A stretch of DNA of 64,000 bases from an uncultured Bacteroidia bacterium (GTDB taxonomy: Bacteria > Bacteroidota > Bacteroidia > Bacteroidales > UBA932), in assembly GCA_902790635.1 (NCBI GenBank), contig CADASN010000002.1:124001-188000 (forward strand), given 5' to 3'. Numbering within the stretch: position 1 is the stretch's first letter; each line of letters opens with the position of its first letter. Below the pieces are notes generated by a model. The model was not told where the DNA came from. It saw only the letters and a list, made by a program, of their open reading frames with translations, and searched no databases. Below, piece after piece: positions 36,336 through 40,190 of this stretch. A program made the translations under genes and the position numbers.

Positions 36336-36380
36336 TTCAAGTATTTATAATGGCTGCCACACTTTAGCAGTTTGACTGAT

Positions 36381-36388
36381 TATTTTTG
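36381..36388 (+). promoter_or_regulatory. -7 box of the tandem zinc-motif gene
   Basis: TATTTTTG matches TAnnTTTG and ends 25 bases before the ATG at 36414. No TTG lies at the right distance. Confidence 0.4.
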
Positions 36389-36413: not shown

Positions 36414-36665
36414 ATGCCTAGATTTTATTGCGTTAATTGCGGAAGGGATTTCTCCAGTGTGAGGGACTTGGTCTCCCGTACCTGCCCCAACCATCCCAAC
36501 GGTTTCTGTAAAGGGAATCACATCCTCTATGAAGGAAGTGAGAAGTCGAAATATACATGCAAGTACTGCGGCCGTCAGTTCTCTTCAATTCGAGACTTGA
36601 CATCTCGGACTTGCCCTGATCATCCGAACGGATTCTGCAAAGGGAATCATTCTCCGGCTCTGTAA
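36414..36665 (+). CDS. Small protein of two tandem zinc-binding repeats
   Basis: The 83-residue product is almost entirely two copies of a 32-residue unit. Each has C-x2-C-G-R-x-F-S-S near its start and T-C-P-x-H-P-N-G-F-C-K-G-N-H at its end. The units cover about residues 5-36 and 48-79. Cysteines and histidines in each unit could bind one or two zinc ions. The linker is LYEGSEKSK. Role is unknown; nucleic-acid or protein binding is plausible. It is followed after 14 bases by the GyrB-like gene. Confidence 0.8.
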   Translation: MPRFYCVNCGRDFSSVRDLVSRTCPNHPNGFCKGNHILYEGSEKSKYTCKYCGRQFSSIRDLTSRTCPDHPNGFCKGNHSPAL

Positions 36666-36679
36666 TCAATTTCATCAGA

Positions 36680-37273
36680 ATGAATTCAGCAGATAACACC
36701 ATTCAAACTCTTGAATGGTACGAGCACATTCGCCTAAACCCTGAAATGTATATCGGCAAGATTGGGGATGGCTCGGACGCGGGAGATGGCATATACACTC
36801 TTCTCAAAGGCCTTATTGACAGCTCGGCCGACGAGTTCGAAATGGGCTATGCCAAGGGACTTGAGATTGAAATCAGCGGCTTGACCGTTTCTCTGAGAGA
36901 ATACGGCCGTGGAATTCCTCTTGAATCTGTTGTTTTTACAACCAGTGGAATATCCGTTGGAATTGGCGCCAGAAAGGATGTCGTCACGACCAATGGCTAT
37001 AAGGTGGCCAACGATCTTTCCGAAGAATTCAAGGTTAATTCATACCGTAGCGCAGCACGCTCCTGGGCATCGTATTCTAAGGGGGTACTCGTTGATCAAA
37101 GAATAGAAGAAGACAAGAATCAGGAGCCCGACGGTATCTGGGTTAAGTTTACCTTAGATAAAGACCTATTCCCCATTAGCTACTACAGGCAGGAGATTGT
37201 CAAGAACATTCTCATGCAATATGCCGAGAAATATAAGGGCTTTTCAATTACCCTCAATGGCGTAAAGCTATAA
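36680..37273 (+). CDS. Stand-alone, degenerate GyrB/ParE-like GHKL domain
   Basis: The 197-residue protein aligns along its length with only the N-terminal ATPase subdomain of GyrB/ParE. It has the family start (RLNPEMYIGKIG), the N-box region, a G-R-G-I-P motif near 75, and the closing VKFTLDKDLFP and ITLNG strands. Key residues are changed. The usual D-N-S-x-D-E-A helix reads IDSSADEF, so the Mg-binding asparagine is serine. D-N-G-R-G-I-P reads EYGRGIP. The glycine-rich ATP lid is shortened to TTNGYKVANDLS. It probably does not hydrolyse ATP and has no transducer or Toprim domain. Confidence 0.8.
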   Translation: MNSADNTIQTLEWYEHIRLNPEMYIGKIGDGSDAGDGIYTLLKGLIDSSADEFEMGYAKGLEIEISGLTVSLREYGRGIPLESVVFTTSGISVGIGARKDVVTTNGYKVANDLSEEFKVNSYRSAARSWASYSKGVLVDQRIEEDKNQEPDGIWVKFTLDKDLFPISYYRQEIVKNILMQYAEKYKGFSITLNGVKL

Positions 37274-37336: not shown

Positions 37337-37891
37337 ATGGAATCATTCTTTATGAAAGACGACTCTGAAAACAACCAGGGATATGAGCATATGCTTGATT
37401 TTCAGATGTCATGGGTAATGCGTGTCCCAACCAAACAAGAAATTAAGAGCAAGAATAAGAAGCTTTATAAGCGTTGCTATGGCATTCTAATGAAACTGAT
37501 TGAAAAAGACAAGGTGGAAAAAATTGTCAGTGTCAACGTTTGGAAACAGTGGAAGCGCATCGATGTTATAGCCGAGGTTGTCGTTGAGTATGATGGTAAA
37601 GAGGAGAAACATGTCGTAGTCATAGAGGATAAGGCTTATACCATGATTCATGATGATCAGCTCAATCGATACGAGAGAACTGTAAGTGATTGGTATGCAG
37701 ACAAGGATATCAAGCCTCATTATTGGGTTATCACATTCTTCTCAGAGGGTGAGGATGGTTATAAGACGATTAAATCTATGTGCGATTCCTCGAATGGTAA
37801 ATGGCAGTTGCTCTCTTATGATAACGTTTTAGACGATTATTCTCCAACAGGAAGCGAGCTCTTCGATGATTTTTGGATAAACAAATGGTGA
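37337..37891 (+). CDS. PD-(D/E)XK nuclease superfamily protein
   Basis: The 184-residue protein has a PD-(D/E)XK core. D76 lies in KRIDVIAEV, E97-x-K99 is in VVVIEDKAY, and Q108 and Y112 are in QLNRYERTV. This spacing matches the PDDEXK_4-like group, whose members are often single-domain DNA nucleases in restriction, phage or defence loci. The ATG at 37337 follows an AT-rich region. It is 63 bases downstream of the GyrB-like gene and ends 12 bases from the convergent unknown gene. Confidence 0.8.
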   Translation: MESFFMKDDSENNQGYEHMLDFQMSWVMRVPTKQEIKSKNKKLYKRCYGILMKLIEKDKVEKIVSVNVWKQWKRIDVIAEVVVEYDGKEEKHVVVIEDKAYTMIHDDQLNRYERTVSDWYADKDIKPHYWVITFFSEGEDGYKTIKSMCDSSNGKWQLLSYDNVLDDYSPTGSELFDDFWINKW

Positions 37892-37903: not shown

Positions 37904-38239
37904 TTAAGATAGGTGGTGCTGACTAGCATCGCCTTTCTTATTACAATAATCGATAGCATCCCTGAAGTCAGAAAACTCGATCTCCTCATCATCTGTTTCA
38001 TACATCACATGCTCATAGAAATGATCTTCTGAGCGATTCCCGGCCAAAGCATACGAGAGCTTCGTCTTGACGCCGTTCTCGTTCTCATATTCAAACTGCA
38101 TCCGTGCCATGAAGAATTCCAGATAGGGTTCATACTCAAATTTGGCAATGGTGAATCTGCTCTGCTCTTCCTTCGTCAAATCCCTAAATCCATACAGGGA
38201 GTATAGGAGGTACATTTCATCAAGGGGTATTCGATTCAT
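37904..38239 (-). CDS. Acidic protein of unknown function divergent from the WYL operon
   Basis: I chose the ATG at 38239, giving 111 residues, because a TATCTTTG box lies 18 bases upstream and a longer frame would run through the operator. The protein is acidic and aromatic (FEYEPYLEFFMARMQFEYENENG) and ends in a cluster DDEEIEFSDFRDAIDYC. I recognise no family. Its promoter mirrors that of the WYL gene, so it is probably controlled by the same regulator. Confidence 0.65.
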   Translation of the reverse strand: MNRIPLDEMYLLYSLYGFRDLTKEEQSRFTIAKFEYEPYLEFFMARMQFEYENENGVKTKLSYALAGNRSEDHFYEHVMYETDDEEIEFSDFRDAIDYCNKKGDASQHHLS

Positions 38240-38257
38240 AGTGCTTTGATTTTTCGG

Positions 38258-38265
38258 CAAAGATA
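38258..38265 (-). promoter_or_regulatory. -7 box of the gene divergent from WYL
   Basis: The minus strand reads TATCTTTG. It lies exactly 10 bases downstream of the left operator arm (38276-38292), as the WYL -7 box does relative to the right arm. Confidence 0.7.
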
Positions 38266-38275
38266 TGGAGCGCCC

Positions 38276-38348
38276 CTGCCAAAAACCAGCAGCCCTCATT
38301 TTTCCTCTTCTTTTTAGCACCAATAATCAAGCTGCTTGTTTTTGGCAG
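38276..38348. promoter_or_regulatory. Symmetrical operator pair between the WYL operon and its divergent partner
   Basis: CTGCCAAAAACCAGCAG at 38276-38292 is the reverse complement, 16 of 17 bases, of CTGCTTGTTTTTGGCAG at 38332-38348. Each arm also has CTGC and GCAG at its own ends, so each may be a dyad. The arms are 39 bases apart and each is 10 bases upstream of a TATCTTTG box, covering the -33 position. Confidence 0.8.
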
Positions 38349-38366
38349 CGAGAACTTTTATCTTTG
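38336..38366 (+). promoter_or_regulatory. Promoter of the WYL operon
   Basis: TTG at 38336-38338, inside the right operator arm, is followed by 20 bases and TATCTTTG at 38359-38366. The ATG of the WYL gene is 21 bases further on. Overlap of the TTG with the operator fits repression. Confidence 0.8.
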
Positions 38367-38387
38367 CTGCAGATCAAGATACTGAAT

Positions 38388-39302
38388 ATGGCAAAAAACT
38401 ACTTCGAAAGGTATGTATGGTTACTGAACGTAATCAATGACCACGGCCCCATTACCTTCAAAGAAATCAGCAATCGTTGGGCACATGCTCAGGCAAATAC
38501 GCTTGGTGAGAGTTATCTGCCCGAAAGGACCTTCCATAATCACAGAGAAGCTATCCAGGAGACCTTCGGCATTGAAATCAAATGCGACCGCTCGCTTGGG
38601 TACTACATTGCCGATAGTGATGAACTCAAGGGCGAAGGAGTCCGCCAGTGGTTGCTGGCCTCTCTCTCGTTGATCAATCTCCTCAACGAAAGCCGGGATA
38701 TGCGGGACCGGATTCTTTTCGAGAAGATCCCGTCAAGCCAGCGTTGGCTCTCCGTCATAGTAAATGCGATGCGAGCAAGCAAAGTCATCGAGATGACATA
38801 TCAGAGCTTCTGGAGAGATGAGCCCAACACCTACAAAGCAAAGCCTTATTGCCTAAAGCTATTCAAGCAGCGCTGGTATATGCTGGCAAAGAGTGAAGGC
38901 AAGGATACGCCGCGTATCTATTCCCTCGATGAGCGGATGATTGACGTCAAGCCAACGGATGAGAGCTATAAGCTTCCTGCCAAGTTCAACGCAGAGGAAT
39001 ATTTCAACGACCATTTCGGCATCATCGTGGGCGCAGAATGGAAGCCGCAGGAAATCAAGATCAGGGTCGTGAATGACCAGGTCAAGTATTTCGATTCGCT
39101 GCCTCTGCATGATTCTCAAATGAAGGTGCCCGCTGAATCAAATGAGGAGTACACAGTCTATAGGTATCACTTGGCGCCGACATTTGATTTAAAGCAGGAG
39201 CTACTTGGCCGCGGGTCGGCAGTAGAGGTATTGAGTCCAGAAGCATTCCGCCAGGAAATAAAGGAAGATATCGCCGCGATGGCAAAGCTGTATGGTCTAT
39301 GA
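38388..39302 (+). CDS. WYL-domain transcriptional regulator
   Basis: From the ATG at 38388 the 304-residue protein has an N-terminal winged-helix region (residues about 1-65, FKEISNRWAHAQAN and RTFHNHREAIQETFGIEI). A WYL domain begins about residue 125 (VIEMTYQSFWRDEP, KPYCLKLFKQRWYMLAKSE), and a WCX-type C-terminal extension follows. WYL proteins sense ligands, often nucleic acid, and repress phage-defence or stress genes. Its start is just downstream of the operator pair, so autoregulation is likely. The stop overlaps the exonuclease start by four bases (ATGA). Confidence 0.88.
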   Translation: MAKNYFERYVWLLNVINDHGPITFKEISNRWAHAQANTLGESYLPERTFHNHREAIQETFGIEIKCDRSLGYYIADSDELKGEGVRQWLLASLSLINLLNESRDMRDRILFEKIPSSQRWLSVIVNAMRASKVIEMTYQSFWRDEPNTYKAKPYCLKLFKQRWYMLAKSEGKDTPRIYSLDERMIDVKPTDESYKLPAKFNAEEYFNDHFGIIVGAEWKPQEIKIRVVNDQVKYFDSLPLHDSQMKVPAESNEEYTVYRYHLAPTFDLKQELLGRGSAVEVLSPEAFRQEIKEDIAAMAKLYGL

Positions 39303-39793
39303 AGGATTTTGCGGCCATAGATTTTGAGACGGCCAACGAGTGTCGCTGCAGTGTGTGCTCGGTAGGTGTTGTCATCGTCCGTGACGGCAAGATTGTGGAC
39401 TCATTCTACAGTTTGATTCACCCGGAGCCGGAGTACTATCAGTGGTTCTGCCAGCAGGTTCATGGCCTGTCGGAAGAAGACACAGATGATGCGCCGGTGT
39501 TCCCGTATGTGTGGGAGAAGATTGCTCCGCTGATTCAGGACCTTCCGCTTGTGGCTCATAACAGCCGCTTCGATGAAGGCTGTCTGAAGGAAGTGTTCAA
39601 GGTGTATCAGATGGATTATCCCGATTACGAGTTCTACGACACGCTGGCCGCCTCCAGGAAGCATTACGGATGCAGTCTGCCAAACCATCAGCTCCAGACT
39701 GTCGCTGCTGCTTGTGGGTATGATCTGAAGAATCACCATCACGCATTGGCCGACGCAGAGGCCTGTGCTCACATCGCAATGAAACTACTTTAG
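39299..39793 (+). CDS. DEDDh 3'-5' exonuclease, DnaQ-like
   Basis: The 164-residue protein is one exonuclease domain. Exo I is D8-F-E10 (AAIDFETAN), Exo II lies in PLVAHNSRFDEGCL (aspartate near 97), and Exo III is the DEDDh form H148-x3-D152 (HHALADAEACAHI). All catalytic acids and the histidine are present, so it should degrade DNA or RNA from the 3' end. It is too short to hold other domains. Overlap with the WYL gene and the 4-base gap to the next gene show an operon. Confidence 0.9.
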   Translation: MKDFAAIDFETANECRCSVCSVGVVIVRDGKIVDSFYSLIHPEPEYYQWFCQQVHGLSEEDTDDAPVFPYVWEKIAPLIQDLPLVAHNSRFDEGCLKEVFKVYQMDYPDYEFYDTLAASRKHYGCSLPNHQLQTVAAACGYDLKNHHHALADAEACAHIAMKLL

Positions 39794-39797
39794 AGAT

Positions 39798-40190
39798 ATG
39801 CAGAAGATTAACAAGAGAATTGCCCCCAATCATATCACGGAACTCTCTCAGTGCGAAATTTTCGTTTTCGGCAGCAATCTGGAAGGCCAGCACATGGGCG
39901 GAGCAGCACGCTATGCCTATGATCATTTTGGCGCAGAATGGGGCAACGAAGTAGGACCGCAGGGACAGGTACGCGAATGCACCTCGCTTGAAGGGAAGGA
40001 GCGCAGGCACATATCCATTGGTGCTTATGATACAGTCTTGTCCTTCCGGAACTTCGGAAAAGGGATTGCACTCGGCCGGATGGTCAGACATCTCTTCCCG
40101 CTCGAGGATGATGATGCCGAGGTCAATCACATCTGCCTCTCGGACTTTTACGAGCAGGATGTCTTCGTCGGTTTGTGCGAAAAGAAGTAA
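39798..40190 (+). CDS. Phage-type FVFGSNL protein (A1S_2505-like)
   Basis: The 130-residue protein starts with the segment EIFVFGSNLEGQHMGGAARYA (split here only by the family pattern FGSNL-x-G-x-H-x-G-G-A-A). It is followed by FGAEWGNEVGPQGQ, the pattern of small proteins common in phages and plasmids that I know as A1S_2505-like. The glycine-rich loop looks like a nucleotide-binding loop, in layout somewhat like macro domains, but that is speculation. The C-terminal half (RNFGKGIALGRMVRHLFP) is less typical. It is the last gene of the WYL operon. Confidence 0.7.
   Translation: MQKINKRIAPNHITELSQCEIFVFGSNLEGQHMGGAARYAYDHFGAEWGNEVGPQGQVRECTSLEGKERRHISIGAYDTVLSFRNFGKGIALGRMVRHLFPLEDDDAEVNHICLSDFYEQDVFVGLCEKK

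Follow-up and report, generated by a model that had tools for sequence, protein, structure and literature searches.

A recurring promoter palindrome at fixed spacing in Bacteroidales, and a WYL-domain regulator that may activate a modular island through it

An intergenic region from an uncultured Bacteroidales bacterium carries what appears to be an operator-promoter tag: a 17-bp palindrome lying exactly 10 bases upstream of a -7 promoter box. Sequence comparison indicates that this tag recurs in related genomes, that its spacing hardly varies, and that it is associated with a WYL-domain regulator. We somewhat favour a reading in which a dedicated, DriD-like WYL activator serves a modular, nuclease-rich, defence-like island through this tag. 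That is, we infer that the WYL protein binds the palindrome, responds to a ligand, and activates genes with a role in defence or repair. In the following, the window is the whole 64,000-nucleotide stretch of DNA that was analysed; related WYL loci and genomes are numbered with the prefixes L and G.

Results

Operators and genes in the window

The operators, boxes and genes of interest are as follows.

36354-36370, + strand: operator 3, CTGCCACACTTTAGCAG; 26.5 bits; found in the own-genome scan; counterparts in L041, L042 and L066
36381-36388, + strand: -7 box behind operator 3, TATTTTTG
36414-36665, + strand: 83-residue zinc-finger-like protein; first gene behind operator 3; related family behind an operator in three of eight loci
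36680-37273, + strand: 197-residue protein resembling the GyrB/GHKL ATPase N-terminus; NCBIfam gyrase B, best 3.7e-16
37337-37891, + strand: 184-residue PD-(D/E)XK nuclease-like protein; Pfam PF14281 at 5.3e-9, above cut-off
37904-38239, - strand: 111-residue protein, function unassigned; model with a helix, five strands and a helix
38258-38265, - strand: -7 box of the 111-residue gene, TATCTTTG; 10 bases from its arm
38276-38292, - strand: operator 2 (left arm), divergent promoter, CTGCTGGTTTTTGGCAG; 25.4 bits; counterparts in L040, L041, L042, L045 and L066
38332-38348, + strand: operator 1 (right arm), WYL promoter, CTGCTTGTTTTTGGCAG; 38.0 bits with its -7 box; conserved in relatives
38359-38366, + strand: -7 box of the WYL operon, TATCTTTG; exactly 10 bases past operator 1
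38388-39302, + strand: WYL regulator, 304 residues (wHTH, linker helices, WYL, WCX), from Pfam and the structure model
39299-39793, + strand: DEDD 3'-5' exonuclease; four-base overlap with the WYL gene
39798-40190, + strand: 130-residue A1S_2505-family protein; NCBIfam NF049995 at 2.9e-14, above cut-off

The original prediction described operators 1 and 2 as inverted copies with 16 of 17 matches, each 10 bases from a -7 box on its own strand, and on both points it was accurate. The arms at 38276-38293 and 38331-38348 match at 17 of 18 positions (equal to 16 of 17 in the earlier frame), and their outward-facing TATCTTTG boxes lie at 38359-38366 (+) and 38258-38265 (-). Two further elements of that description are replaced here. 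Firstly, the arms had been taken as a single symmetric unit; each arm is itself a full operator with the consensus CTGCC-N3-TTTTGGCAG. We reject the half-site interpretation because many operators stand alone, and because each arm is an (imperfect) palindrome in its own right. Secondly, the TTG of the right arm had been read as a -33 element. Both arms contain TTTTTGG, which puts TTG 14 bases from the -7 box, whereas TTG in generic promoters of the same loci peaks at 19–20 bases; a TTG at gap 20 occurs in the right arm only (38336-38338). The idea that the arms are simply the -33 elements of ordinary promoters was likewise rejected: the spacing is wrong, and there are only three such sites in 2.24 Mb.

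Matches to the arm pattern with up to three mismatches occur twice in 64 kb (0.07 expected; 100 shuffles never gave two). Scanned with a 35-base matrix that covers operator and -7 box, the window has three matches and each of 20 dinucleotide shuffles has none. In the bacterium's own genome (2,241,365 bases scanned, 39 contigs, 83% complete), the pattern at up to three mismatches gives three sites in total—the two arms and 36354-36388, which the original prediction lacked—all within ~2 kb, and a backward control pattern gives one.

Invertible promoters flanked by inverted repeats are used in Bacteroidales, and the geometry of the arms (two of 18 bp, with a 37-base loop) would suit a phase-variable promoter of this kind, or a cruciform or terminator. 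We consider this very improbable. Inversion would alter nothing, since neither -7 box is enclosed by the arms; spacing between operators differs among loci (0 to 107), and that between operator and box hardly does; operators without a mirror partner are common; and the arms lie upstream of the transcripts.

For the WYL gene, the ATG at 38388, 21 bases past the -7 box, is the most likely start, since a longer reading frame from 38265 would begin upstream of the gene's own promoter. Similarly, we place the start of the zinc-finger-like gene at 36414 because the listed TTG start (36372) sits upstream of the -7 box. The 130-residue gene is probably the last gene of the WYL operon. NCBIfam labels its family as a phage non-structural protein, and longer versions (median 384 residues) are present in L040-L042 (for example, L040 7411-8565). 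The DEDD exonuclease family is found in 50 of 76 loci (75 loci plus the window, some of them incomplete). For the 197-residue GyrB/GHKL-like protein, NCBIfam scores are far below the curated cut-offs and the Pfam search returned no match; the PD-(D/E)XK-like protein matches PADLOC PDC-S26 (2e-9) over part of the model only.

The divergent 111-residue gene

The original prediction linked the 111-residue gene to the system, and comparison with relatives agrees: an operator precedes the gene in six of the seven loci in which it was found (the window, L040, L041, L042, L045 and L066). In L066 the gene does not adjoin the WYL gene and faces another gene; its operator is still present. In the seventh, L044, the gene lies within a different operon and lacks its own operator. 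The L040 copy was hidden from the gene caller, and its operator site was found by the matrix. A check for related loci that keep the genes and lose the arms found both operators retained in L040, L041, L042 and L045, where WYL identity to the window is 94%, 93%, 91% and 69%, respectively.

We assign no fold to the 111-residue protein because the best PDB match to its model (mean pLDDT 78.5) has an E value of 0.073, which is not significant. Protein family searches (Pfam, NCBIfam and PADLOC among them) gave no convincing family, and a search for the gene among 81 genomes found it in its own genome only. A likeness to the c18 family was considered and dropped (hhalign probability 4.6, not significant).

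Recurrence of the operator at related WYL loci

Eighty WYL loci were fetched, of which 75 were used; the remaining five, with matches at or near a contig end, were omitted. Most of these loci have a CTGCC-N3-TTTTGGCAG-type palindrome upstream of the WYL gene, often without a mirror partner. A matrix built from 50 WYL-proximal sites within the same 75 loci (threshold 17 bits) finds 137 sites in their 788,801 bases, a palindrome flanked by two boxes, such as that of L077, counting twice; the reversed matrix finds none. The close clade (53 loci: L040-L094 as used, plus L106 and L114) accounts for 126 sites, with at least two in 40 loci, one in 12 and none in one. Of these, 68 lie away from the WYL promoter at a median distance of 1.9 kb, in loci that extend at most ~6 kb to each side. 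The other 22 loci contribute 11 sites, and in wider stretches sites span 14 kb (L176) and 12 kb (L181).

With the window included, sites of their own precede 119 genes, which fall into 28 protein clusters (WYL and 27 others). These cluster counts are rough: many clusters are single and some reading frames are probably spurious, eight other proteins were joined to the WYL cluster, and the 111-residue gene of L040 was missed.

Among 21 further WYL loci, all on the minus strand (32–64% identity), the script found a palindrome 10 bases before a box in L011; L010 has a palindrome with a TACCTTTA box that the script did not catch, and the other 19 (32–50% identity) have no palindrome 10 bases before a box. 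Of eight plus-strand loci inspected by eye, L012, L013 and L014 have palindrome and box. No operator lies directly upstream of several WYL genes whose proteins have 45–50% identity (L015, L016 and L017). The same is true of L047, L076, L092 and L096; in L047 and L076, an operator is present on an upstream operon instead. Viral contigs were also searched with the WYL patterns, and no DNA matched.

Spacing between operator and -7 box

The 10-base spacing was imposed in the window, own-genome, locus-matrix, covariation and 398-genome scans. It was left free in counts of exact and one-mismatch palindromes, and in the choice of the best 17-mer upstream of WYL. Exact CTGCC-N7-GGCAG palindromes number 36. 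In 33 of them a T[AT]nnTTTG box stands exactly 10 bases away, with a box on both flanks in one case; of the remainder, one has a box only elsewhere (L082) and two have no box in range. Palindromes with one mismatch (n = 153) have a box at 10 bases in 113 cases, only elsewhere in eight and not at all in 32; none has a box at spacing 11. Three control palindromes, with 76 one-mismatch sites between them, have no box at 10. Among the best 17-mers upstream of WYL (n = 75), TAnnTTTG lies at 10 bases in 54 and T[AT]nnTTTG in 62.

If the -7 box is taken as centred at -7, following PMC7366714, this spacing places the operator at about -38 to -22. The usual -33 TTG is displaced. In other promoters of the same loci (n = 177), TTG is found at gap 19 in 8.5% and at gap 20 in 13.0% (21.5% together). 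Island promoters (n = 74), which were picked by a matrix that itself favours C at the gap-20 position, have TTG at gap 19 in none and at gap 20 in 6.8%, operator sequence replacing TTG at the usual -33 position in 69 of 74; in 75.7%, TTG lies at gap 14, inside the operator.

The WYL protein and its relatives

Pfam detects the WYL (6.3e-13) and WCX (7.9e-9) domains of the regulator, both above cut-off, and no separate HTH match. The structure model (mean pLDDT 85.9; 61–70 over residues 71–120) has N-terminal helices at 3–19, 24–32 and 46–60 and strands at 64–67 and 71–74. Foldseek ranks DriD first (3.4e-13), followed by PafBC (3.1e-11), CapW (4.3e-7) and BrxR (2.1e-6). Alignment with DNA-bound DriD covers about the whole chain, with a TM score of about 0.5 at best and an rmsd of 11. 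A profile search with the WYL family gives PafBC as the best match (2.2e-16), then DriD (1.3e-13 to 6.6e-13) and CapW (0.001); BrxR gives no match up to 0.01. By both profile and fold, the protein is thus nearer to the activators DriD and PafBC than to the repressors BrxR and CapW. The RxxRLDR motif of DriD, with its three ssDNA-binding arginines, aligns with R-I-Y-(A/S)-LD-(E)-R, in which the middle arginine is Ala/Ser; D181 and R183 of the WYL protein are invariant in A1.

Repression had been proposed as the likely mode of action. The constant spacing, the displacement of the -33 box and the kinship with DriD and PafBC favour activation instead, and we regard the WYL protein as probably, by a modest measure, an activator. 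The -7 boxes here count against activation: they are near consensus, whereas the -10 boxes of DriD promoters are poor. The operator at the WYL gene counts against it too, DriD being without self-regulation.

Under the competing interpretation, the WYL protein would be a BrxR/CapW-like repressor that blocks RNA polymerase at all island promoters until it is released by a ligand. CapW and BrxR offer a precedent on palindromes in defence promoters (PMC9122588 and PMC9122601, both in the parts available). The palindrome here covers the -33 region of promoters with strong -7 boxes, the island genes look defence-like, and repression would easily explain both autoregulation and the sharing of one palindrome by two promoters (L077). 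Occlusion has no need of an exact 10-base spacing with none at 11, however; promoters whose operator sits at the position of the -33 TTG would be weak unaided; and profile and fold kinship lies nearer to DriD and PafBC. We judge repression to be the less likely mode, yet a strong contender.

Association between operator and WYL protein

The proposal that one regulator, most simply the WYL protein, controls both directions is supported by the distribution of the site. The survey covered 398 genomes from the family, and 43 of them are listed as having a WYL protein with 50% identity or more (E no higher than 1e-50; this and the following genome figures hold among the matches listed and are hand counts). 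The site, at up to one mismatch, is present in 40 of these 43 and in 71 of the 355 others (odds ratio 53). In all, 111 of the 398 genomes have the one-mismatch pattern, and seven have a backward control pattern. In one genome (G366), WYL and sites lie on different contigs.

Operator and protein also covary. With the recognition helix RTFxNH, the first base of the operator is C in 47 of 51 loci, and with RTFHKW in none of seven; 60 loci were kept for this comparison (15 of 75 dropped), and its statistics ignore common descent. The KW-helix site in L117 is probably no real operator.

Exact sites occur, among the matches listed, in 26 genomes, of which 21 have a WYL protein of at least 50% identity; G128, G412, G413, G023 and G394 do not. 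In G128, none of the five query proteins lies within 9 kb. Two cases look like decay: in G394 (L187 5132-5760) the exonuclease lies directly behind the operator and WYL was not found, and in G413 (L186 6187-6884) only a WYL fragment is left. G023 (contig C13; L184 6313-6419), a genome with no WYL match, has a c6-family cassette that carries two divergent operators; this cassette is either an orphan or read by another regulator.

A number of genomes have a sister operator type, GTGCC-N4-TTTGGCA, spaced from its -7 box in the same way. Some of these genomes carry a more distant WYL protein, and operator and protein possibly form a separate WYL-operator pair.

The palindrome might instead be read by another transcription factor, or by an alternative sigma factor of the island or host. 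Operators without a full WYL gene (G023, G394, G128 and G412) and the 71 genomes with at least one one-mismatch match and no close WYL protein would fit such a reader. Many of these 71 are of the GTGC type, though, and since some have a distant WYL protein they may belong to the sister pair. The ordinary TAnnTTTG -7 boxes, the strong WYL association and the helix covariation count against another reader; overall, we find this explanation improbable. A LexA-type motif was also considered and set aside: the operator is unlike the Bacteroidetes LexA motifs GGA-N5-TCC and CTAA-N5-TTAG given in the accessible portion of PMC8565304.

Distances between back-to-back operators

The centres of operators 1 and 2 are 56 bp apart. 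Across divergent gene pairs (n = 23), nine lie at 56 or 53–58 and four at 45; the remaining distances are 34, 67 and 78–79, but also 32, 72, 75, 92, 99 and 107. At L077 (4816-4868), a single palindrome has boxes on both sides (distance 0). The 23 pairs show ~11-bp periodicity (p ~0.001 against two nulls), in a test that takes one value per gene pair, omits shared palindromes and was devised on a pattern noticed after the fact. Rayleigh tests at 10.5 bp give p 0.0012 for all 36 pairs (zeros included) and p 0.0054 for the 32 unique ones. Centre distances in helical register would suggest contact between neighbouring activator complexes; we treat this as a lead only, with recombination between cassettes as a possible alternative.

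Genes of the islands

Several families have their own operator in at least one locus: (i) an AAA ATPase family (IetA models, 3.5e-28, part of the protein), (ii) a PD-(D/E)XK family (PDC-S26, 2.5e-93), (iii) a GmrSD family (HEC-06, 1.1e-50; Pfam GmrSD_N and GmrSD_C), (iv) a MoxR-like AAA protein followed by a VWA protein, and (v) KaiC-like and DnaB-like ATPases and a PLD-like nuclease. Others occur in the islands without their own operator, namely the DEDD exonuclease of the WYL operon (PDC-S48, 2.9e-28), a metallophosphoesterase (PDC-S10, 1.6e-50) and a weakly UDG-like protein. A role in defence or repair is put forward conditionally because the PADLOC names are those of candidates (PDC, HEC) or partial matches to system proteins, and because several island clusters match no PADLOC model. 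One WYL island (L183 6525-8501 and 9356-13950; G044, contig C1) encodes three GmrSD-family proteins, one of them directly behind an operator.

Discussion

The activator reading can be laid out as a mechanism. A WYL dimer would sit on each 17-bp palindrome, at about -38 to -22 and centred near -30, where the operator takes the place of the -33 box normally found by the sigma factor, 10 bases from the -7 box. On sensing, through its WYL domain, nucleic acid set free when DNA is damaged or a phage attacks, the protein would bring in RNA polymerase in the manner of DriD and PafBC. Three transcription units would be switched on at the same time: the operon that encodes the regulator (WYL, DEDD exonuclease and A1S_2505 protein), the 111-residue gene on the opposite strand, and the operon of operator 3 (zinc finger, GHKL-like protein and PD-(D/E)XK nuclease). 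The presence of the same tag before changing nuclease, ATPase and restriction-like cassettes in relatives points to a modular island under one local regulator. We tentatively extend this, at rather less than even confidence, to a scheme in which captured cassettes join an alarm regulon by carrying the operator-promoter tag, are served by one DriD-like activator, and stand back to back in helical register.

Of the known WYL systems, DriD is the best fold match. As described in PMC12340889, its sites keep one distance to the -10 element and overlap -35 boxes of poor quality, and transcription from the driD promoter region runs in both directions. The two systems share the order wHTH, linker helices, WYL and WCX, the use of several promoters, constant-distance sites over a degenerate -35 or -33 element, and a bidirectional promoter at the regulator gene. 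They differ in that DriD serves the separate promoters of dnaG, recJ, bapE and didA, whereas the own-genome sites here lie within ~2 kb; DriD is without self-regulation in that account, whereas the WYL gene here has an operator; and the same text, as far as available, reports no changing island among DriD targets, in contrast to the island described here.

PafBC and SiwR act at a -26 element (PMC10693628 and PMC11804915, as available), a promoter position near that proposed here, and PafBC is the best sequence-profile match. SiwR binds an imperfect palindrome of 19 bp that adjoins the gene for SiwR (PMC10693628). Unlike the present case, PafBC is a heterodimer and SiwR serves one small operon, and the mycobacterial phylum and promoter class differ. 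According to PMC10693628, the WYL regulators that its authors know from phage defence are repressors. CapW and BrxR are WYL dimers that repress defence operons from promoter palindromes or inverted repeats and, as here, combine such palindromes with defence or defence-like genes, BrxR having two boxes in one island (PMC9122588 and PMC9122601, in part). Their site positions differ from ours, the CapW site lying over -10 and the BrxR site between promoter and gene; both are more distant by profile and fold, and BrxR homologues are reported predominantly in Proteobacteria.

A WYL regulator with promoter palindromes is therefore known; what appears new is a modular island marked by the tag, together with the constant spacing, in the Bacteroidota phylum. 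A literature search, mainly outside the subscription journals, turned up no paper title that links a WYL regulator to a tagged island of this sort in Bacteroidales. The tag offers a means of finding, from sequence, genes that may be co-controlled by one damage or phage sensor, including many without an assigned function, the 111-residue protein among them. If the activator reading is true, WYL activation, known from Caulobacter and mycobacteria, would extend to Bacteroidales, and to islands of a defence-like kind, a setting in which the WYL regulators studied best act as repressors.
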